Part shown: one piece after another, positions 25,101 to 49,618 of the stretch
Layout: every line of letters begins with the position of its first letter
Numbering within the stretch: the stretch's first letter is position 1
From: Acidimicrobiales bacterium
Lineage (GTDB): Bacteria > Actinomycetota > Acidimicrobiia > Acidimicrobiales > SZUA-35
Direction: 5' to 3'
DNA length: 64,000 nucleotides
Assembly: GCA_020630065.1 (NCBI GenBank)
Contig: JAHDCC010000009.1
Location: forward strand, 1-64,000
Made by a program: the position numbers and the translations under genes
The notes under the pieces: generated by a model
Seen by the model: the letters and a program-made list of their open reading frames with translations, nothing else
What the model was told of the DNA's origin: nothing
The model's database searches: none

Positions 25101-26080
25101 ATATAGCGAAGACGTTGAGAGGGGCGGTCGAAACTAACTCCTCCCATTTGGACAAGCAACGGCACCAAGAAAAGTCCGACAATCGAGCCTGCGACGATTC
25201 CAACGAGTGAGCTGGTTACCGGATTCGACGACGGGAACAGCAGTTCAACTACGAACCAAACCAAAATGAGTTGGCCGCCAACAAAAGCCACTGGGCGGCC
25301 AAGTTTGCGGACCACGTCAACACTGGCATCAAGGGTTGATCGCAGATCATCAGATGCGGCAGAAACCGGCGCTGTTCGCGTCACGTGGTATCCCATCATT
25401 GCAACCACAACGAGGCTAGCGACAACGGCTGGCAGATTAGTTGACAACACCGAACCGTTGAACCTCGTGTCAAACAACGTGCCTAGACCGGTTGCCAGAA
25501 TTGCCGACATACCCAAGATCGCTGCGATACCTACTCCGACCTGCCAGCTGTACAGCAATGCCAGGATCGCTCCGGCAACTAAAGCAACAAGACCAACAGC
25601 TAACAAGGCCTCCCGTTCAATAGAACGTTGCAGACGAATGTCTGCGGCGCCGGATCCTTGGACCGAGATTGAGGTAGTTGTGGAGTTGGAATCAGCAATC
25701 CGTTCAACGGTGTCAAGCAGCGTATGTTCAGATGGCGTTCGGGGAATGATGTAAATGACAGAGGTGTCAACCGCTGTTGGCACCACCGCAAAGTTGGAAG
25801 TATCCGGATTGTTTCGAAACGCTCCAGACAGTGTGAGAACATCCTGGCTAAGCGCATTGGGCTGACCTTGAAGTACTACAGCAATCTCAGCTGATCGCCC
25901 AGTACTCCACGAAGTCACCGATGACTGGGCAAACGCTGTGTGTGCAGAACTAACTATTCCGCATACTCCGAGCAAACCAGCGATGAGTACCTGCAACACT
26001 CGAGGCGAGACAGACCAGCTAGCTATGGTCCGGCTGTTCAACCGCCTATCGACACTACTCGCACCCGCACTGCGTCTCAC
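22169..26080 (-). CDS. MMPL/RND-like 12-TM protein fused to a Ser/Thr protein kinase
   Basis: The 1303-residue protein has three parts. Residues 29-660 have the MMPL/RND layout: one helix (29-50), an outer loop (51-155), six helices (about 158-355), a second outer loop (356-498) and five more helices (500-657). A linker (about 661-825) carries three 16-residue repeats. Residues 828-1090 form a complete Hanks kinase: Gly loop GEGGFAVVY, Lys857 in VAIK, HRD 948-950, LKPSN and DFG 968-970. The tail (1165-1303) contains a beta-rich domain I do not recognise. The kinase should be cytoplasmic and active. It might sense or gate transport through the membrane module, but this is inference. otsA is divergent, 98 bp away. 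Confidence 0.88.
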   Translation of the reverse strand: MRRSAGASSVDRRLNSRTIASWSVSPRVLQVLIAGLLGVCGIVSSAHTAFAQSSVTSWSTGRSAEIAVVLQGQPNALSQDVLTLSGAFRNNPDTSNFAVVPTAVDTSVIYIIPRTPSEHTLLDTVERIADSNSTTTSISVQGSGAADIRLQRSIEREALLAVGLVALVAGAILALLYSWQVGVGIAAILGMSAILATGLGTLFDTRFNGSVLSTNLPAVVASLVVVAMMGYHVTRTAPVSAASDDLRSTLDASVDVVRKLGRPVAFVGGQLILVWFVVELLFPSSNPVTSSLVGIVAGSIVGLFLVPLLVQMGGVSFDRPSQRLRYILREHEMAQTIGLGIVALCVLVTVVGVLNSFGRPTAGSLDQSALNTQSSAASVLRANGDLTEAVAVNAAAGADQESVDQFALEISTWPAVRLVQTSTLVAVEGIGTDNNQVERERPFTALKTDDSQLVLVVPIGAERSNSTQQLVLDLQAQNILQDATVETERLRDVEFEARQGWLLVSVIFLTCLAGLIAALVVGGDLAVALSFLVVRLFLLLGVVGIGSSLITGGSVDEIILIVLAVAIILAWFEVSYWTYLEPGLSSRRSSAIPVNVSSNLRMRTPIRSSSVGLVALSAVGLTWMFADAPFLRPMGMALVVVPIVVTAAINVLLPSVFSYAHEFESSDMVGRNSTLKRPGLRMAMPSFDGLPFGRSRQVVVPRLRLLVPSKPLETVTRKPDQVEVEDGQSEPSVQEASSDVEEGQSEPSVQEASSDVEEGQSEPSVQEAPSDLEEGRSSTELVDEQSSNADVEISVDGDEAHLEAKAEGTEAGVDDSLISEEPPVVIEGFSDLSVAGEGGFAVVYRAVDSSGNPVAIKVLTAVNDENERRRFDREKEALQTLADVDGVVELLGFGQTTAGAPYLALTYIEGGTIARRIRNRPYNWHEAYELGCQLAETLAICHRKGVFHRDLKPSNVLLADGDKPHLLDFGSTQIVDGRSLSTRAAFTPNYCPPEVLVVGNKGADSGLVDVYGLGILLWSMVAGRRPFVSDKSANEEMPMVFNRVATQKLEPLVGVPLWFKQIVEKAIEKNPSDRFGSVAEMHTALVTRSLLSDPETEQKDQNSSYGASLKRRIRNQPKIGFGDLFARRQPDMSDLFEEHKPTSANPVTGSATSVNAKPVQQTDHQTAPNNQPKVDWSAEASRLILADYHLASSPASHQVDEVYFPGTEVYDVASRVRNQYLELGHQIVGDQPIVLQVDVINDDAPVRLEVVVAHPPYVVLDRDGKKLQSCPFERRRSALWLVETDNGYRISTIVLRTSEQDET
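23768..23911 (-). repeat. three tandem 48-bp repeats in the kinase linker
   Basis: Three in-frame units encode residues 724-739, 740-755 and 756-771, each of the form xExGQSEPSVQEAxSD. The DNA copies are almost identical, which points to recent duplication and possible length variation between strains. Confidence 0.9.
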
Positions 26081-40117: not shown

Positions 40118-41158
40118 CTATACCAGACGGAAACGCGGTGTTCGTTCCGAAGTTGTACCTATGATGGCGGCTTGATGCCCCTCTTCTACAAGTTGAGCGA
40201 GAGCTGCGCTGCTCTCCCCCGGATCGACACCAAAAACTAGCCCGCCCGAGGTCTGAGCGTCCGCTACCAACAACCGGTTACGTTCGCTATGGGTACCGGC
40301 TTCTAGAAGCTCTTCCCCCCACGCTAGGTTTCGGCGGCTGCCACCCGGCATGATCCCGTCAGCAGCTAATTCAACCGCACCATCAAGAAACGGCAGAGAG
40401 TCAAACATTACTTCGACTTCGACTTCTGATTCGATAGCCATGCGTCCGAGATGGCCAAGTAATCCGAATCCGGTGATATCTGTACAACCGGTCGCTCCTG
40501 CTGCAATAGCGACCCGTGATCCCAGGTCGTTTAGTCGGGTCATCGAATCGACTGCACCTGCGGTCACCTCTTCGGATGCGACGTCGGCTTTGATGGCGGT
40601 AGTTATTACACCGATACCTAACGGTTTTGTCAAGATCAAGTCTTGACCTGGTTCAAGTCCAGCGTTGGTCAAAACCCGATCTGGGTGAACTTCGCCGGTC
40701 ACCGACATACCGTATTTAGGTTCTGGGTCGTCAATCGTATGCCCACCGACGATCGCAAAACCACCTTTTGTCGCTATATCTTGGCCGCCAGCTAGCAGCT
40801 CGCGTAACAACGCGGTGGGTAACGCGTCGGTGTTCCAACCCACCAAGTTGAGTGCGAACAACGGACGGGCGCCCATAGCGTAAATATCGGAGACACTATT
40901 TGCCGCTGCCACGCGACCCCACGTTCTGGCGTCATCGACAACCGGCGTTATGAAATCAGCGGTCGACACAACAGCTCGATCGTCGTCGAGTTTCCATACC
41001 GCTGCGTCATCACCGGTTGAGGTTCCAACCAATAGCTCTTTGGGGTTACTTGCTCCTAAATCGCGCACAACGTGCGCGAGCTCGCCTGGTGCGAGCTTGC
41101 AGCCTCAACCAGCACCGTGGCTGAACTGAGTAAGCCTAAAGGTCGTTGGTTCGTTCAT
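40118..41158 (-). CDS. selD: selenide, water dikinase, itself a selenoprotein (Sec18)
   Basis: SelD makes selenophosphate from selenide and ATP. The uninterrupted frame begins only at GTG 41068, but upstream, in frame and across one TGA (41105-41107), the sequence continues as FRLTQFSHGAG-U-GCKLAPGELAHVV. That is the conserved SelD N-terminus with selenocysteine at the catalytic Cys position, the lysine two residues further on. The true start is ATG 41158, giving 346 residues. Downstream motifs fit: GDDAAVW, STADFITPVVDD, AANSVSDIYAMG, GGHTIDD and TKPLGIG. A hairpin follows the UGA (41079-41097). It lies downstream of the selenate-type ABC transporter on the same strand. Sec-containing SelD is known in other bacteria and archaea. 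Confidence 0.95.
41079..41097 (-). promoter_or_regulatory. SECIS-like hairpin after the selD UGA
   Basis: In the mRNA, AGCUCGC pairs perfectly with GCGAGCU around the 5-base loop ACCAG. The stem begins seven bases after the UGA, so the loop starts 14 bases after it. A second perfect stem, GCGCAC/GUGCGC, follows (41063-41077). Bacterial SECIS elements, bound by SelB, sit at this place inside the coding region. Their sequence varies between lineages, so the function is inferred from position and fold. Confidence 0.7.
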
Positions 41159-41320: not shown

Positions 41321-43021
41321 TTAGCGTAAATTTCTCCGCATCGAGGCGGACACCAAATCGACCAGGATCGTAACTAACAGCAACGCTAAGACGGTGGCTA
41401 GGATTCCGTCATAGTCGAATGATGAGGTCTGTTCATCGAGGCGACGGCCTAGACCAGCAGCACCAACTACGCCAACGATGACGGTTTCGCGAATGGCGAC
41501 CTCCCACCGGTACAACGACAGAGCCACAAATCGACTTGCGAGAGCTGGAACCGTTGCGTAGAGGAGAGCACCAGGGGTTGTCGCTCCCATGGCGGCTAGT
41601 GTTTCAGCCGGACGATGGTCATGGTTTTCGATCACTTCAGCTTGTAGCCGTCCAAGTATTCCGGCGTTGTAGATACCTAATGCCACTACTCCTGGCCAAA
41701 GACCTGGGAACAACACAAAAACTACTACAAACGCCCAGACTGGCGGCGGAACCGATCTAGAGATAAGCATCAGAAGTCGAACAAAGCTGGAAACAACCCA
41801 AGGGCCCTTGGCGTTACCTAAAGATACGTTTGGCCGTTTTGCTAATGATGCCAGTAGCGAACCTAGGACGGCTGCAATTACGATCGATAACACCGCTAGC
41901 GCGACCGTATCTAGCGCATCGTTGAACAGCTCTTTAAAGCCTCCAATACCTACCTGCGGAGGCCACGACTCGGCGACGATTTTATTTGATAGTGTTCGTG
42001 CCCGAGGCGCCCAAAGTGACGAGAAGTCAAGATCGAGTCTCCAGATTGATATCGGGACACCTATCGCACAAATCAAGGCGCTCAATCTCAGAGCCCGGTC
42101 CTGTGTTGATTGGACCGGGCTCGGTTCACCGTGGTCGAGGGCGGGTATCTTGGAGACCGATCGCATTTCGACGGCGACAGCGTTGCGTCTTCTCCGCAAC
42201 GCTGATGACCACCGGTCTCCAATCCCGCTGAGAAGAACTAGCGCCCATAGAAACGTCCACATCTGATCGTAACGCAACGACTGAAACGACAAAGCCAACT
42301 GGAAACCAAGACCTCCAGCTCCGACTATCCCCAATACGGCGGCGCTTCGCAGACTGCATTCAAACCGGTAGAACGCATACGAAACCAGATCGGCAAAAGC
42401 GTGAGGAACCGTCGCAAACAAAACCGCTGTCGTCCGTCCGGCTCCGGATGCTCGCAGAACTTCTTCGGGACCTGTCGGGGCTTCATCTAAAAGATCGGCG
42501 AAAACCTTGGCAGTGACCGCTCCGAAAGGAATACCGATCGACAGAACAGCGACCAACGGGTTAAGCCCCAAAATATTGACCAAAACGAGACCAAAGACAA
42601 CCTCGTGCATAGAACGGGGAACAGCAAAAGCTACTCGACCGATGAGCCAACCTACTCTGCCTCGCCTCATCGGACCATGGATAGGACGCCAGATACGTTC
42701 AGTCAGCAAAATTCCGCCAAACGATCCGATAAGCAACGCAAGTGCTGTGCCCACTAGCGCATAACCCACGGTCACCGCTGACTCTCGAACCGTAAGCGCA
42801 AGCATGTCTCGGCTCAGGTCGGGGTTGAACATCGCGCTAAAGAACGCCCGCACTTGCGACCAGCCACCCGGATTAACTAGCTCTGTTGGGTCGATGCCGT
42901 CTTTAGTGACTGACCATCCAACCACGATGACCACCGCGATCATCCACCCTTGACGCCCCCTATGCCGTGGTTTTACCGGCAGGTCAAAGGTATCGTCGGC
43001 TTCGGAGCCAATCGTTGTCAT
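41321..43021 (-). CDS. ABC transporter permease, two PhnE-like domains fused (putative selenium oxyanion uptake)
   Basis: The 566-residue protein is two PhnE-type permeases in one chain: residues about 20-280 and 300-566, each with a run of membrane helices and an EAA-type cytoplasmic loop (EEVLRASGAGRTTAVLFATVP; AETLAAMGATTPGALLYATVP). It therefore supplies both halves of the channel. Its ATG overlaps the end of the ATPase gene by four bases (ATGA). Related systems carry phosphonate, phosphite or phosphate. The selenium assignment rests on the binding protein and on selD, 162 bp downstream. Confidence 0.85.
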   Translation of the reverse strand: MTTIGSEADDTFDLPVKPRHRGRQGWMIAVVIVVGWSVTKDGIDPTELVNPGGWSQVRAFFSAMFNPDLSRDMLALTVRESAVTVGYALVGTALALLIGSFGGILLTERIWRPIHGPMRRGRVGWLIGRVAFAVPRSMHEVVFGLVLVNILGLNPLVAVLSIGIPFGAVTAKVFADLLDEAPTGPEEVLRASGAGRTTAVLFATVPHAFADLVSYAFYRFECSLRSAAVLGIVGAGGLGFQLALSFQSLRYDQMWTFLWALVLLSGIGDRWSSALRRRRNAVAVEMRSVSKIPALDHGEPSPVQSTQDRALRLSALICAIGVPISIWRLDLDFSSLWAPRARTLSNKIVAESWPPQVGIGGFKELFNDALDTVALAVLSIVIAAVLGSLLASLAKRPNVSLGNAKGPWVVSSFVRLLMLISRSVPPPVWAFVVVFVLFPGLWPGVVALGIYNAGILGRLQAEVIENHDHRPAETLAAMGATTPGALLYATVPALASRFVALSLYRWEVAIRETVIVGVVGAAGLGRRLDEQTSSFDYDGILATVLALLLVTILVDLVSASMRRNLR

Positions 43022-43770
43022 TGACTGTCATCGAGTTGATAGAGCTCGTCGAGCAGCTCGGACGACACGTGTGAAGCTGGCAGGTCAAACTGAATACGAC
43101 CAGACCGCAAACCAACTATCCGGTCACAGTGACGTAGGGCTAGCGGGGCATCATGCATGCTGGTGACAACCGCTTTGGTCGAAGAAAACATGATCGGCTC
43201 CGTCAGCACGCTCATTACCGAGTCGGAGCGTGCCGGGTCTAACGCACTTACTGGTTCGTCAGCCAACAGAAGGTCTGGCTTCTGGAACAGAGCCCGCGCT
43301 ATCGCGGTGCGTTGTTGCTGTCCGCCTGAAAGACGGTCAGTGCGTTCCCAGATTTTGTCGGCAATTCCTACCTGACGTAGCGCTCCAGCAATATCGTCTG
43401 TTGGTCCTGGACGAAATAGCGTTTGTACCGCTCGAATCCCAGACCAGGTACCCAACCGACCTGAGGCCACATTGCTTGCAACCTTTAGTGGACCGACGAG
43501 GGTGTAATCTTGGCTAATGATTCCAATACGTGACCGTTCTGGTCGGTGGTTTCTTCGACCCAGCTGGCCCGAGTCGACACCAAATACCTTGACTGAACCC
43601 GAGGTAGGTGACGCCAACCCTGCCGCCAGGCGAAGAATGGTGGACTTCCCTGCACCTGAAGGGCCGATAAGGGCGACCCGTTCACCTGCGTCGATAGTGA
43701 GCGTCAGCTCTGCGACCGCCTCGACGCCACCGGCGCTGTAGCGCACCGTGACGTCGTCGAACGACAGCAC
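43018..43770 (-). CDS. ABC transporter ATPase, PhnC-like (putative selenium oxyanion uptake)
   Basis: The ATP-binding subunit has Walker A GPSGAGKST, signature LSGGQQQRTAIARAL, Walker B LLADEPVSALD and a switch His in TSMHDAP. The start is GTG 43770, four bases after the binding-protein stop. The longest frame, from ATG 43833, would run 59 bp into that gene and adds residues unlike the family. It overlaps the permease gene by four bases. Confidence 0.9.
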   Translation of the reverse strand: MLSFDDVTVRYSAGGVEAVAELTLTIDAGERVALIGPSGAGKSTILRLAAGLASPTSGSVKVFGVDSGQLGRRNHRPERSRIGIISQDYTLVGPLKVASNVASGRLGTWSGIRAVQTLFRPGPTDDIAGALRQVGIADKIWERTDRLSGGQQQRTAIARALFQKPDLLLADEPVSALDPARSDSVMSVLTEPIMFSSTKAVVTSMHDAPLALRHCDRIVGLRSGRIQFDLPASHVSSELLDELYQLDDSQ

Positions 43771-43774
43771 CTGC

Positions 43775-44725
43775 TCAGCCGTCAATCTTGCCGATCTCAC
43801 GTCCAACAGCTTCAATGCTGTCATAGTTTCCACTCACCGTGTCGATGAAGGACTCTGCCCCGAAGAACTCAAGAATTACGGCGTGTTCTGGGTCCTCGGG
43901 ATCGAGTTTTTTCAACGCATCAACAATTCGGGTTTGGAGGTCTGAGCCGACCTCTGGTCGAGCCACCCAATGGTAGTTGTAGTACGTTGGCGTCTCGAAA
44001 ATGAGCTGAACCTTGTCGAGGTCGACTTCGCCAGCTTCAACTCGGGCATCCCAGACTTGAGAACTCAACACTCCTACTTCGAACGTTCCGGCTTCGACCA
44101 GTTCAATTGTGGCGTCATGAGAGCCACTGAACCCAGATTCGCCTTTCAGATCGTCGAGAGAAACGCCTGCTTCGGTCAAGAACGCTTGGGGCATCAGTCG
44201 ACCAGAGGTGCTTAGTTCTGAGCCGAAGGTTAGTGTGCGGCCTGCGACTACGTCTAGCCCGGCTATATCCTCGACCGGTTCGATCCCTGAGTCAGTTGTT
44301 GCGATAAACACCGAGGTGAAGTCCTGGTCAATGTCGCGCTGGGCGATCGCTTCAGCTCCGTCGACTTGCAGACGTGCCTGTACCCCGGTGAGAGCGCCGA
44401 ACCAAACCAGATCGAGATCACCTACGCCGAAGGCGGTTACGGCGGCGTCGTATTCTGTGACCGGTTCGAACACAACTTCGATATCGAGTTCTTCGGCCAG
44501 ATAGTTAGCGACGAGTTCGTAGTTCCGGGCCAGCAATTCTGGGTCCTGATCCGGAATTGCCCCAATCACTAACGGACCTTCAAATGCCTCGGTGTCAGAG
44601 TTGGTACCCGGCGCTTCGTTATCCTCCGTTCCAGACGTATCGTTTGAGGCCTCTGATTGGGTTGAAGAACCACAGGCCGCTGTGACAAATACAAGAATCG
44701 AGAACACTATCGCTAGGCGTCGCAT
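43775..44725 (-). CDS. putative selenate/selenium ABC transporter substrate-binding lipoprotein
   Basis: A lipoprotein signal ends TAAC (Cys18), followed by an Asp/Glu/Thr-rich linker and a PhnD-superfamily periplasmic-binding fold. The motifs IPDQDPELLARN, WFGALTGVQARL, GAEAIAQRD, FGSELSTSGRLMP, GFSGSHDAT, YYNYHWVARP and FFGAESFI resemble, from memory, the clade described as a putative selenate ABC transporter binding protein (TIGR04553), whose genes commonly sit near selD. Here selD is four genes along on the same strand. Ligand identity (selenate, selenite or other) is not proven; plain phosphonate binding is the alternative. The ribosome site GGAAGG stands nine bases before ATG 44725. Confidence 0.82.
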   Translation of the reverse strand: MRRLAIVFSILVFVTAACGSSTQSEASNDTSGTEDNEAPGTNSDTEAFEGPLVIGAIPDQDPELLARNYELVANYLAEELDIEVVFEPVTEYDAAVTAFGVGDLDLVWFGALTGVQARLQVDGAEAIAQRDIDQDFTSVFIATTDSGIEPVEDIAGLDVVAGRTLTFGSELSTSGRLMPQAFLTEAGVSLDDLKGESGFSGSHDATIELVEAGTFEVGVLSSQVWDARVEAGEVDLDKVQLIFETPTYYNYHWVARPEVGSDLQTRIVDALKKLDPEDPEHAVILEFFGAESFIDTVSGNYDSIEAVGREIGKIDG

Positions 44726-44885: not shown

Positions 44886-46019
44886 TCAGCGGGTGCATGG
44901 CAAACAGACCCTAACTCTGCCACCAGGCCCTTCAAACAGCTCCACAACGCCGCCGTGGGCGCTAGCGAGTGCATTGGTAATGGACAGACCTAAACCTGCT
45001 CCCCCATGGCGTGAGTCGTCCGCCTGGGTGAACCGTTCAAGTGCCGACGCTATGAATGTCGGAGGGAAACCTTCGCCTTGATCAAGCACTTCGATTGTTA
45101 CTCTCTCCGGAATGTCGGTATCTTCAGACGCTGAGACAGCCGACGACACTACCACGATCGAGTTGTTAGGGGCATGACGTACTGCGTTATCGAGCAGGTT
45201 CCGCCAAACTCGGCCGAGAGCGACATGGTCTCCGTCTACCAAGAGTGGACCATGTACCTCTGAACGGATCTCGACTGCCTTTTTGGCTGCTACAGGAGCG
45301 ACAGCGTCTATGGCTTCGTCCACCAGTTCCGCAAGGTCCAACGGTTCGAACCTGAGTGCAAGACTGCCTGAATCGGCCCTAGCAAGCAGGAACAAATCGT
45401 CGACCAGCCGTTCGAGTGCGATTACGTTTCGACGAATCGCCCGAAGGTGCGTCTCTGACGAGCCTACCCCATCTTGGAGAGCGTCGACTGATACCAACAA
45501 CGCAGCCAACGGTGTTCGGAGGTCGTGACTTAACGCGGTCACGACCGCTAGACGTTCTTGGTCTGCGATCTCCCGCTCTTGTTCAGCCTCTACCAATGAT
45601 TGAGACAGTCCATCTACCGACGAAACGAGGTGCCCAATCTCGCCTTTTCGTTCGATCCCGGTAGGGCTACGATCACCGGCCGCGACCCTGTTGATCGAAG
45701 CCACTACTGTCTGGAGGTCTCTGGCCAGGGGCCTAGAAACCCGCAAACCGACCCATAACATCGCTAATGCCGTTATGCCAGAAACAAAGAATGTGTAACG
45801 GACTTCGCGACCTGACAGGGTCATTGCTCCTGCGCCGAGAAGGGCACCGATGATTCCCAAGATCGGGCCCACAAATCCTATCGCCAGGACCGAGGCTGAC
45901 AAAGAAAAACGACGGAGCAGCGCAGGCAGCGTGACTGCGATTGCGATACAAATACCGACCATAAGCAGAATAAAAAGTGCTACGGACGGACCTTCCTCCA
46001 TCGGTGCGGCGACGATCAT
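44886..46019 (-). CDS. sensor histidine kinase
   Basis: This is an integral membrane sensor. Three membrane helices (about 13-35, 41-66, 73-92) have almost no extracytoplasmic loop, followed by a HAMP-like linker, a HisKA domain with His165 in ALSHDLRTPL and an HATPase domain (NLLDNAVRHAPNN, LDQGEGFPP, GGAGLGLSI). The lack of a large outer sensor domain suggests it senses a membrane or transporter-borne signal. The ATG overlaps the regulator stop (ATGA). It lies between the regulator and the putative selenium transporter on the same strand, so regulation of that transporter is a reasonable guess. Confidence 0.92.
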   Translation of the reverse strand: MIVAAPMEEGPSVALFILLMVGICIAIAVTLPALLRRFSLSASVLAIGFVGPILGIIGALLGAGAMTLSGREVRYTFFVSGITALAMLWVGLRVSRPLARDLQTVVASINRVAAGDRSPTGIERKGEIGHLVSSVDGLSQSLVEAEQEREIADQERLAVVTALSHDLRTPLAALLVSVDALQDGVGSSETHLRAIRRNVIALERLVDDLFLLARADSGSLALRFEPLDLAELVDEAIDAVAPVAAKKAVEIRSEVHGPLLVDGDHVALGRVWRNLLDNAVRHAPNNSIVVVSSAVSASEDTDIPERVTIEVLDQGEGFPPTFIASALERFTQADDSRHGGAGLGLSITNALASAHGGVVELFEGPGGRVRVCLPCTR

Positions 46020-46744
46020 CTGTCAAATCTGTACCCCACGCCATACACCGTCACGATATGACGGGGGGCAGCAGGGCTTTCTTCAATTAGTCGACGCAGA
46101 CGACGTATATGAACGGTGACGGTTCCTGGATCTTGCCACTCTGGACTCGACCCCCACACTTGACGCAACAAATCGGATCTAGTCATCACTTCACCGGGCT
46201 TCGACGCCAACTCGACGAGAAGGTCGAACTCTTTCGGTCGAAGCGAAACGGCGTTACCGTTGCGGGTGACCGTTCTGGCGGTGACGTCGATCTCGATGTC
46301 GGCAAAGGACAACACGGTCACGGCTTCGGTCTTAGAGCGACGCAAAACGGCTCTAACCCTGGCCGATATCTCTCGAGGCGATGCCGGCTTGGCTACATAG
46401 TCGTCAGCCCCAAGGTCGAGGCCAGCGACCCTATCGGGTTCACCTCCTCGAGCACTCAGAACTATTACTGGCGTCTCGGCGCCACTGCTACGCAGCTCTG
46501 ACAGTACTTCGATCCCATTCTTTTCTGGCAACATGAGGTCGAGGACAACAACGTCGGGGCCTTCGGCGTAAAACTTTAAGAGAGCCTCTTTGCCGTTTCC
46601 GGCAGTCACTACACGAAACCCATCGCGTTCGAGATAACTGGCAACAACCGAACACACTTGTTCTTCATCATCTACAACGAGTACGCAGCGACGCGTTTTC
46701 AGGTCAATGGTGTTACTGGCGATCTGTTGGTTGTCTAGCTCCAT
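46016..46744 (-). CDS. OmpR-family response regulator
   Basis: The receiver domain has the acidic pair DD (25-26), phospho-acceptor Asp69 (VVVLDLMLP) and Lys in AKPASPRE, then a winged-helix DNA-binding domain (LRPKEFDLLVELA, VTVHIRRLRRLIE). It is translationally coupled to the histidine kinase by a four-base overlap. The start ATG 46744 adds a 17-residue extension before the receiver. Target genes are unknown; the nearest candidates are the transporter and selD downstream. Confidence 0.95.
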   Translation of the reverse strand: MELDNQQIASNTIDLKTRRCVLVVDDEEQVCSVVASYLERDGFRVVTAGNGKEALLKFYAEGPDVVVLDLMLPEKNGIEVLSELRSSGAETPVIVLSARGGEPDRVAGLDLGADDYVAKPASPREISARVRAVLRRSKTEAVTVLSFADIEIDVTARTVTRNGNAVSLRPKEFDLLVELASKPGEVMTRSDLLRQVWGSSPEWQDPGTVTVHIRRLRRLIEESPAAPRHIVTVYGVGYRFDR

Positions 46745-46770: not shown

Positions 46771-47319
46771 TCAAATTTCACTACCTTGGATTGTTTTTAC
46801 AAACTCAGGTATTTTAGGGATAACTAGGGCCATCGAGTCGGCGCAAACTTGCCGGTTTTCGAACCATTCACCTATTTCTTGCAGCGGCACTCGTTGACTT
46901 CGTTGAACTTCTCCATCTGTGAAGGTAATCGGGCCATCATATTTCAGTCCATAGACGTGGCCTACAACCGCCAGGTCTTCGTTTTGATAGAACCCGCCGC
47001 CTAGAAAGGTCAGGGTTTGTCCGCTTATACCGGCTTCTTCAGCTAGCTCCCGCTCGGCGGCATCCAACCATTCTTCTCCAACATCACATACACCTCCAAA
47101 CGCTACATCCCAAAAGTCGGGGTTGTAGTCTTTAGCGGGTGAACGTTGGTGTGTGACCAGGGACAGGGTCGATGAATCACCGGTGAGAACCACCACGTAA
47201 ACCGAACGGTGGGCCAAATTCTGGCTCCTCATCTCTGCCCGGGTAGCGATATCTAGTACGGACCCATCCGGTCGAACGACTTCTACAAGTTCCGCCGACG
47301 GGTCCGTACTCTTATTCAC
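46771..47319 (-). CDS. NUDIX hydrolase
   Basis: The NUDIX box is complete: GGVCDVGEEWLDAAERELAEEAG. Length and the N-terminal EVVRPDGSVLD resemble the YfcD/isopentenyl-diphosphate-isomerase-like NUDIX group, but the substrate cannot be read. It starts at ATG 47319, 17 bp after the selenocysteine lipoprotein gene, and ends 26 bp before the response regulator, so it is part of the same minus-strand run. Confidence 0.88.
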   Translation of the reverse strand: MNKSTDPSAELVEVVRPDGSVLDIATRAEMRSQNLAHRSVYVVVLTGDSSTLSLVTHQRSPAKDYNPDFWDVAFGGVCDVGEEWLDAAERELAEEAGISGQTLTFLGGGFYQNEDLAVVGHVYGLKYDGPITFTDGEVQRSQRVPLQEIGEWFENRQVCADSMALVIPKIPEFVKTIQGSEI

Positions 47320-47336: not shown

Positions 47337-47900
47337 TTAGCCAACGGCGGCCGCAACAGCGTTAGGGTCGAAATTGCTCCAACGTTGGATTTCGGCACCG
47401 CTTGAATCTAGCAGAATCGTCGTATGTTGGCTGTTGACGTCATACGCCTCCCAAACATCTCGACTATCTGACCAAACAAGGTCGGCGGCATCGGTTTGTG
47501 CCTCTTGCTGAAACTGTTCTGCTAACTCTTGGTTGTCTAAGATTCCGACACCAACTACTTGAATTGCGTCTGCGTTAAGGGAAGCCAACTGCTCCACCTG
47601 GGGCGCTTGCGCCCGGCAGCTTGGTCAATGCGGGAAGTAGAACCACAACAGCACTGGCGTGTCGCCGCCAGAAACCAACTCACTGAACGCAACCGTGGTG
47701 TCGTCGTTCAAACTCAGCACTTCAGCGTCAGGAAACGACGCTGCGCCAGCACCAGCATCTGCGGTAGTTGAATCACCACCACAGCTTGCGACCAACAACA
47801 TAGTAGCCACGAGCAGTGCAGCGAATGCACCCAATCTGGATCTCGCTGGCCCACCAGGCTGGCGGACACCCTGGGATCTATAGTTCATAGAAAAGTCCAT
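47337..47900 (-). CDS. TlpA-like thioredoxin-fold lipoprotein with selenocysteine (U-P-S-C)
   Basis: Two adjacent frames join into one protein of 187 residues if the TGA at 47625-47627 is read as selenocysteine. The first part has a lipoprotein signal (lipobox LVASC, Cys40), a short linker and the thioredoxin strand PVLLWFYFPH. The TGA follows, then PSCRAQAPQVEQLASL. The site is Sec92-Pro-Ser-Cys95, exactly where TlpA/ResA proteins have CPxC, followed by the usual RAxxPxxExLA helix. The remainder (VVGVGILDN, TTILLDSSG) completes the fold. A GC-rich hairpin follows the UGA. It should be a membrane-anchored thiol or selenol redox protein outside the cell membrane. Neither half makes sense as a separate gene. 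Confidence 0.92.
47598..47619 (-). promoter_or_regulatory. SECIS-like hairpin after the UGA of the TlpA-like gene
   Basis: In the mRNA, GGGCG and CGCCC close the tetraloop CAAG, with an outer CUG/CAG stem below a CC bulge. The loop begins 15 bases after the UGA, against 14 in selD. The shared geometry supports both as SelB-binding sites. Confidence 0.68.
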
Positions 47901-48043: not shown

Positions 48044-49618
48044 ATGGCCAAGAAACCCCTACTGCTCGATGCAAGACTAGCTGGTGCAACCGCGGCTATC
48101 GTTTCGATGGGGGCTGCCGAGCTCTTGGCCGGAGCCCTACGTCCAAACCCAGGACCCGTGGAGGCAGTCAGCACTCGAGTCGTCGCCTACGCCCCGACAT
48201 GGTTCGTCGAACTGGGCAAAACGCTCTTTGGCTTCTCAGACAAGATAGCGCTCCTGGTCGGAACAGCCGTTCTGACTACGCTGATCGGCGCACTTTTGGG
48301 CAAACTGGCTCGGGAACGGATGGGTTTCGCACTCGCCGGGATCGTTGCGATGCAGGCCATAGGTTTTGTCGCGATGGTGAGCGACGACAACGGCCACGCC
48401 GGCGCATCCATGTTCTTGACGATCGCTGGAACCTTGCTCGGCTTCGTAGTTTTTATTGTTCTGATGGGTTTGATCACGCCAGTACCCAAAACGTCTCAAG
48501 ATAAAGACTCCGACATTTCACCGACAAATCCACCGGTTCGGCGTCGGACATTTCTGGCGGCCACAGGCGTCGTAGCTGCGTCTGGGGCCTTGATGGGGGT
48601 AGGCGGAAACCGGCTTCGAGACCGGGGAGGCGACAACGCCACAGCCGCCAAGGTCACTTTTCCACCGTCGCCCGACGCAGAAAAAATCGACTCTCTGGTC
48701 GACAAAGCTAACAGCAGTCCAGTAGCGGCAACCGAACAAATCACACCGGCGGTAGTGCCGAATGAGGATTACTACCGGATCGACACATCACTTTTTGTTC
48801 CGAACATCAATGCCGATGACTGGTCGTTAACCATCGACGGCTTGGTTGACAATCCAATGACCCTGACCTACGACGAACTGGTCAAACGGTCCACCACGAT
48901 CGCCCCCGTCACGTTGTCATGTGTCTCGAACGAAGTTGGCGGACCGTTGGTTGGCAACGCCGTATGGCAAGGCGTACCCCTTCAGGAACTGCTAGAAGAA
49001 GCTGGAGTGAAACCCGAAGCAAGCCAGGTAGCGAGCTATGCCGATAACTGGTCCTGTGGGTTCCCGACGGCGGCGCTCGACGACAATCGGACGGCGCTGG
49101 TCGCGGTGGGAATGAATGGAGAGCCGCTGCCTAATCTGCACGGATTTCCGGCCAGGCTCGTGGTCTCAGGTCTCTACGGGTACGTTTCTGCTACCAAGTG
49201 GCTTCGACGGATAGAGCTCACAACACTAGAAGATTTCGATGGGTTCTGGATCGACAAAGGCTGGGCCAAAATAGCCCCAGTTAAAACGCAGGCCCGCATC
49301 GATAAACCTTTGCCGTTGGAGGAGTTCGATTCATCACAGCCAATTGATATTGCTGGCGTCGCGTGGGCACCCAGTATCGGTATCGAACGAGTAGAGGTGC
49401 AAGTCGACTCTGGCCCTTGGCTCGAAGCTGAGCTCGGGGAAAGCCTCGGACCCGATGCGTGGCGTCAGTGGCGTGTCAAATGGGAAGGCGACAAAGGCGA
49501 ACACACCGTGCAAGTTCGTGCCACGACAAGTAACGGCGAGGTACAGACTGACGAACGCACAGCTCCCGCACCAAACGGCGCTAGTGGACGTCACACCCGT
49601 CGGTTCATATCGCTGTAG
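48044..49618 (+). CDS. membrane-anchored molybdopterin oxidoreductase, sulfite oxidase family
   Basis: The N-terminal part has four or so membrane helices (about residues 12-145), then a twin-arginine-like segment (RRRTFLAATG) and an outer catalytic domain. That domain shows the sulfite oxidase/YedY-type molybdopterin fold (DDWSLTIDGLVDNPMTLTYDEL) with the molybdenum-ligand Cys in TLSCVSNEVGG and GFPARLVVSGLYGYVSATKWL. An Ig-like dimerisation domain ends it (about 425-520). This TM-plus-catalytic layout is common in actinobacteria. The substrate is unknown. It is divergent from the selenolipoprotein gene, 143 bp away. Its cofactor could be supplied by the moaA-moaC-moeA genes at 57.6-60.5 kb. 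Confidence 0.88.
   Translation: MAKKPLLLDARLAGATAAIVSMGAAELLAGALRPNPGPVEAVSTRVVAYAPTWFVELGKTLFGFSDKIALLVGTAVLTTLIGALLGKLARERMGFALAGIVAMQAIGFVAMVSDDNGHAGASMFLTIAGTLLGFVVFIVLMGLITPVPKTSQDKDSDISPTNPPVRRRTFLAATGVVAASGALMGVGGNRLRDRGGDNATAAKVTFPPSPDAEKIDSLVDKANSSPVAATEQITPAVVPNEDYYRIDTSLFVPNINADDWSLTIDGLVDNPMTLTYDELVKRSTTIAPVTLSCVSNEVGGPLVGNAVWQGVPLQELLEEAGVKPEASQVASYADNWSCGFPTAALDDNRTALVAVGMNGEPLPNLHGFPARLVVSGLYGYVSATKWLRRIELTTLEDFDGFWIDKGWAKIAPVKTQARIDKPLPLEEFDSSQPIDIAGVAWAPSIGIERVEVQVDSGPWLEAELGESLGPDAWRQWRVKWEGDKGEHTVQVRATTSNGEVQTDERTAPAPNGASGRHTRRFISL

Follow-up and report, generated by a model that had tools for sequence, protein, structure and literature searches.

The locus at 47337-47900 on the minus strand raises the question of whether a thioredoxin-like gene interrupted by a TGA is broken, or intact with its UGA read as selenocysteine (Sec), and of what its product would do in the cell envelope. 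It lies in the window, the whole 64,000-nucleotide stretch analysed here from the genome of an Acidimicrobiales bacterium. The preliminary description placed a thioredoxin frame split by a TGA at these coordinates, with the UGA on the first Cys of a CPxC motif and a lipobox at Cys40, and all three features were recovered. With TGA translated as Sec (U), the minus-strand frame 47900-47337 gives a protein of 187 aa, MDFSMNYRSQGVRQPGGPARSRLGAFAALLVATMLLVASC(40)...PVLLWFYFPH-U92-PSC95-RAQAPQVEQLASL...AVG, ending at a TAA. The single in-frame TGA, at 47627-47625, is the codon of residue 92, the first of the U-P-S-C motif. By sequence and hydropathy, the lipobox V-A-S-C40 (47781-47792, minus strand) closes a hydrophobic signal segment formed by residues 23-41. 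Across the UGA, the 187-aa protein matches four Pfam families above the gathering score: Thioredoxin, AhpC-TSA, Redoxin and Thioredoxin_8. Residues 50-187 (47340-47753, minus strand) form a thioredoxin-fold domain, which AlphaFold2, supplied with 20 family sequences, predicted at a pLDDT of 91.7. Judged from the sequence, the apparently stop-broken gene is an intact selenoprotein gene, in which the UGA almost certainly codes for Sec.

The UGA column in related genomes

The search for homologues covered 198 related genomes together with named GTDB genomes. Most of the relatives belong to the Acidimicrobiales/Acidimicrobiia (Actinomycetota), and nearly all are metagenome-assembled genomes (MAGs), Ilumatobacter nonamiensis being an isolate. 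Homologues with one internal TGA were found in most genomes of the window organism's family, which rules out a chance UGA. After removal of identical domains, 101 distinct homologues remained, and the column aligned with the UGA of the window holds UGA in 93 and Cys in eight; homologues without the UGA carry CPxC at the motif (e.g. L035, L037, L038). Both CPxC and UPxC relatives, for which the preliminary description had proposed to look, thus exist. It had also held that homologues without the second half would point to a pseudogene; instead, the second half is present and conserved, with a mean identity to the window protein of 38% upstream of the UGA and 35% downstream. The homologues are multi-copy and tandem and occur in several genomic contexts, and the window's own genome has two more UGA paralogues with hairpins of the kind described below (contigs C55 and C41). 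The cultured strain Ilumatobacter nonamiensis YM16-303 has a UPVC member, making selenium labelling feasible. The family tree requires at least four Sec/Cys changes and is poorly resolved, and no history was drawn from it.

A second variable site is the cis-proline that is near-universal in thioredoxin folds. Across the alignment of 101 members this position is Pro in 64, Ser in 25 and His in 12, the last group including the window protein (His159 in SQHTT; 47424-47426, minus strand) and its two paralogues. Tandem pairs of UxxC thioredoxin-like genes occur in many Acidimicrobiia (L095, L112, L114, L117, L122, L124, L129, L130, L131, L139 and L141), and in eight of these 11 loci His occupies the cis-Pro site of the second copy.

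The SECIS hairpin and the selenocysteine machinery

Two hairpins follow the UGA. The first, a GC-rich structure right behind the codon, drops out of the consensus fold and was rejected, and the second was therefore taken as the bacterial SECIS (bSECIS). In the window it spans 47577-47599 (minus strand) and has a 5-bp upper stem, the loop AGUUG, which starts 34 nt after the UGA, and a further 3 bp below one U.C mismatch; its assignment draws on fold, covariation and a codon null. Across the family the hairpin occupies positions 31-47 (with the T of the UGA as 0) and reads U-Y-G-A-G-C / A-G-U-U-Y / G-C-U-C-R-A, the G of the apical loop being present in all 93 UGA members. Among 61 distinct sequences, alignment columns 32-37 and 43-48 are paired in 95.6% of cells, and in 27 cells both sides have changed. 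Such double changes affect four of the six pairs (for example C-G, U-A and G-C at one pair and A-U, C-G and G-C at another). None of 500 shuffles reached the observed covariation values, sliding the partners by 1-3 columns lowered pairing to 22-46%, and the RNAalifold consensus fold agrees with the covarying hairpin.

The complete 6-bp stem is found in 75 of the 93 UGA members and in none of the eight Cys members. As the hairpin lies in coding sequence, synonymous codons were resampled in 200 trials, which yielded a mean of two and a maximum of six complete stems. The stem in the window has the five upper pairs, with G-C where others have C-G or U-A, and resumes below its single mismatch. For its 27-mer the fold energy is -9.0 kcal/mol, a modest gain over shuffled sequences (z -1.4). 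Published bSECIS rules (PMC13188914) specify an apical loop of 3-9 nt with G in the first two positions, a stem of 4-16 bp, a distance of 16-37 nt from the UGA and an MFE of at most -7.5, and the window hairpin falls within them in loop, stem length, distance and energy. A third match to UGA plus hairpin in the window, at 25337 (plus strand), is antisense to a 1303-aa ORF and was discarded as chance-like.

The preliminary description had named a genome without Sec machinery as the other sign of a pseudogene. The window's genome, however, has selA (335 bits) and selB (284 bits, above the cut-off) adjoining each other on contig C41, and selD in the window itself (40118-41158, minus strand). The selD gene is also a selenoprotein gene (HGAG-U18-GCK; UGA at 41105-41107, minus strand), with a hairpin at 41061-41079 that has the 5-nt loop CGUUG. 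Plain ORF calling places its start at 41068, too far downstream. In relatives, too, selD carries a covarying hairpin, whose N-G-U-N-N loop lies at a nearly equal distance from the UGA, and the loop form N-G-U-U-N is common to the window's selD and the thioredoxin-like gene, which is unrelated to it.

The tRNA-Sec was not found in the window's assembly, which is 95.4% complete, with the Rfam model, by BLAST with the tRNA-Sec of relatives or with a clade-specific covariance model; Rfam gave no match within the window. The candidates in the genome proved to be either ordinary tRNAs or, in an array on contig C79, a tRNA-like stretch that fails as tRNA-Sec. This 18-kb contig (of G000; array at L175:447-807) holds a short array of Cys and Pro tRNAs, the tRNA-like stretch and a tRNA of undetermined type, and may be mobile-element DNA. 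Among relatives, a 92-nt tRNA-Sec match above 60 bits was obtained in 26 of 40, lying at a contig end in two, and ARAGORN called all 12 of the candidates examined tRNA-Sec with anticodon UCA. Three relatives of genus g5 (G004, G014 and G021) have no match above 60 bits, and their homologues are without UGA. The relatives' tRNA-Sec (e.g. at L050, L052, L054-L057 and L059) lies near genes read from the sequence as MinD-like and as TadA/CpaF-type secretion ATPases, and a search of the window's genome for the flanking MinD-like gene gave no match. The simplest reading of the missing tRNA-Sec would be an assembly gap.

Gene neighbourhood and readings of function

Comparison of 83 neighbourhoods of homologues identified as the commonest neighbour, at 19 loci including the window, a sulfite-oxidase-family molybdopterin protein (Oxidored_molyb) that has a membrane part at its N-terminus and whose gene invariably lies directly upstream on the opposite strand. 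In the window this divergent neighbour lies at 48044-49618 (plus strand). Downstream genes, all on the minus strand in the window, recur in many loci: a NUDIX hydrolase 17 bp away (46771-47319; family in 13 neighbourhoods), a response regulator (46016-46744; 11 neighbourhoods), assigned from its own sequence and its histidine-kinase neighbour rather than by a Pfam scan, and a sensor histidine kinase (44886-46019; 13 neighbourhoods). They follow immediately in the window; in many relatives genes for a short-chain dehydrogenase (SDR), a ferredoxin and a flavoprotein reductase, missing in the window, lie in between.

The preliminary description had also pointed to selD and a selenium transporter close by, and both are indeed encoded on the same strand, 2.6 to 7.8 kb further downstream. 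The transporter, a selenate/phosphonate-type ABC system (41321-44725, minus strand; TIGR04553 305 bits and TIGR01097 326 bits, above cut-offs), comprises a substrate-binding protein (43775-44725), an ATPase (43018-43833) and a permease (41321-43021). However, a functional link drawn from this arrangement found no support in the comparison with relatives. The window's transporter genes were not found beside the homologues in the relatives' neighbourhoods, and synteny with selD is not conserved, selD and the best homologue being on different contigs in at least 22 relatives, several of these contigs exceeding 100 kb. The arrangement is particular to the window's genome, and selD adjacency was set aside as a functional clue. 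In one relative (G010) a second, more distant paralogue lies about 18 kb from selD. Since the molybdoenzyme neighbour is conserved and the selD/transporter neighbourhood is not, guilt by association gives more ground for suspecting a shared role with the molybdoenzyme than a role in selenium uptake.

As to the protein itself, the closest solved match in both profile and structure is DsbF (E 2.5e-21; PDB 3IOS, Z 18.2, rmsd 2.0 over 129 residues), followed by DsbE/MPT53 (E 8.1e-18; Z 17.2) and then by ResA and CcmG-type reductases. Together with features established from the sequence (UGA in place of Cys, SECIS, selA/selB/selD, lipobox and a predicted thioredoxin fold), these matches suggest that the protein is probably a thiol-disulfide oxidoreductase of the TlpA/DsbE (DsbF/MPT53) type that is lipid-anchored outside the cytoplasm and uses Sec as its nucleophile. 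An envelope thiol-disulfide oxidoreductase is, with good probability, to be preferred to a peroxidase or a metal protein.

The strongest competitor is a Sec-dependent, Prx-like peroxidase, with Sec as the peroxidatic and Cys95 as the resolving residue. In its favour, the Pfam matches include AhpC-TSA and Redoxin, the list of structural matches contains peroxiredoxins at Z 15-16, and catalogues of bacterial selenoproteins have a family named 'Prx-like thiol:disulfide oxidoreductase' with UxxC (PMC1794560, PMC13188914). However, Sec takes the first position of CxxC, which is Thr in the TxxC motif of peroxiredoxins with their peroxidatic Cys; the position of the cis-Pro, where peroxiredoxins have their active-site Arg (PMC2757866), is Pro, Ser or His here; and the closest structures are those of DsbF and ResA. 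A peroxidase is on this evidence unlikely.

A metal-binding or metal-delivery protein, for example for copper, would have Sec, Cys and His159 forming a site that loosely resembles the one in Sco (Cys-Cys-His). Sco proteins use a His in the region that matches His159, and the 12 family members with His for cis-Pro include the window protein and its two paralogues. Most members have Pro or Ser there, however, the motif is UxxC and not the CxxxC of Sco, and no SCO1/SenC Pfam match was obtained for the protein, so that this role appears very improbable. Even less credence is due to a role in reducing selenium oxyanions or in handling selenium in concert with the transporter and selD. The single minus-strand gene run that joins the three in the window's genome favours it; the homologues, by contrast, are found in several contexts and in multiple, tandem copies, and the reduction of selenium oxyanions that the preliminary description had suggested is unsupported because relatives do not share the selD/transporter neighbourhood. 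That a genuine stop splits a pseudogene or the remnant of two genes, a reading to which the missing tRNA-Sec might point, has a negligible chance of being correct: 93 homologues keep their frame intact, with the UGA in the same column and a SECIS hairpin that covaries, and the genome contains selA, selB and selD as well as two more UGA paralogues with hairpins.

For a thiol-disulfide oxidoreductase, the following mechanism may be proposed. The UGA would be decoded as Sec through the in-frame SECIS hairpin, placing Sec92 where the N-terminal nucleophilic Cys would be. In the cell envelope, Sec92 would attack oxidised sulfur, such as disulfides, and could be resolved by Cys95 via a selenenylsulfide. 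The protein may belong to an envelope redox-repair pathway with the divergent, membrane-anchored molybdoenzyme, under putative control of the adjacent two-component system. A complete Acidimicrobiales envelope redox system, with electron exchange between Sec lipoprotein and molybdoenzyme, dedicated two-component control and, in the window's lineage, a Sec-Cys-His site whose His stands in for the cis-proline, is a speculative extension that is rather doubtful as a whole. The conserved molybdoenzyme neighbour is a candidate redox partner that is directly testable.

Comparison with described selenoproteins and oxidoreductases

The preliminary description regarded this as an undescribed actinobacterial system, which is correct in part. 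Proteins of this kind are not new: TlpA-like UxxC selenoproteins have been catalogued (PMC13188914, PMC2398784, PMC1794560). However, no paper on Acidimicrobiia selenoproteins was found in the open-access literature, nor a description there of the lineage-wide Acidimicrobiales family or its conserved molybdoenzyme neighbour. A large Acidimicrobiales group, known mostly from metagenome-assembled genomes, appears to make several cell-surface selenoproteins that current NCBIfam models miss and plain ORF calling splits in two, and the covariation-supported SECIS form can be used to mine the selenoproteome of the lineage.

A second DsbF-like family was observed among the relatives, with two UGAs in the motif WAPW-U-P-[F/H]-U-R, such that both active-site Cys are replaced by Sec (UxxU). 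Its loci are L092 (minus strand, two copies), L102, L166, L167, L168, L170 and L172, and a single hairpin with the loop GGUC and a covarying stem lies past both UGAs. UxxU has been catalogued for Prx-like proteins (PMC13188914, PMC2398784); no description of UxxU in this second group was found in the open-access literature.

The catalogued families closest in kind are the 'thiol-disulfide isomerase-like protein' (cd02966, UxxC; PMC13188914 Table 1) and the GOS family 'Trx-like 1' (COG0526, UxxC; PMC2398784 Table 2). Both have the superfamily and the UxxC replacement in common with the window family; the window protein, judged by fold and motif rather than by the cd02966 profile, has a TlpA/DsbE-type thioredoxin fold with UxxC. 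Compared by the catalogue descriptions, the Acidimicrobiales group differs in being lineage-wide, in the form of its SECIS and in its gene neighbourhood. None of the NCBIfam models for selenoproteins identifies the window protein. Among the thioredoxin-fold (seleno)protein models that match weakly, redoxin_TUGYCR (NF053656) and SelL_rel_redox (NF040769) score it at 20-22 bits against cut-offs of 100-120, and WAxxUGC_long (NF041054) matches one other family member only.

The cytochrome-c-maturation reductases ResA, CcmG and TlpA share the fold, a membrane tether and CxxC with the window protein, but no cytochrome-c maturation genes were seen adjacent to the homologues and no CcdA was found in the window's genome. 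The closest solved relatives by profile and fold are M. tuberculosis DsbF (Rv1677, PDB 3IOS) and DsbE/MPT53 (Rv2878c, PDB 1LU4), which are extracytoplasmic actinobacterial thioredoxin-fold oxidoreductases with CPxC. Searches of the window's incomplete genome for the standard membrane partners VKOR and DsbD_TM (DsbD/CcdA) gave no match at E <= 0.001. The DsbF/MPT53 type is marked by CPxC, with Cys or Sec in first place, and by cis-Pro; the window protein has UPSC, with Sec for the nucleophilic Cys, and His159 for the cis-Pro. Because of this His it was placed as a relative with the DsbF fold and not filed as DsbF, and its catalysis may differ accordingly. By profile and predicted structure, it is a Sec-containing relative of the actinobacterial extracytoplasmic thioredoxin-fold oxidoreductases.
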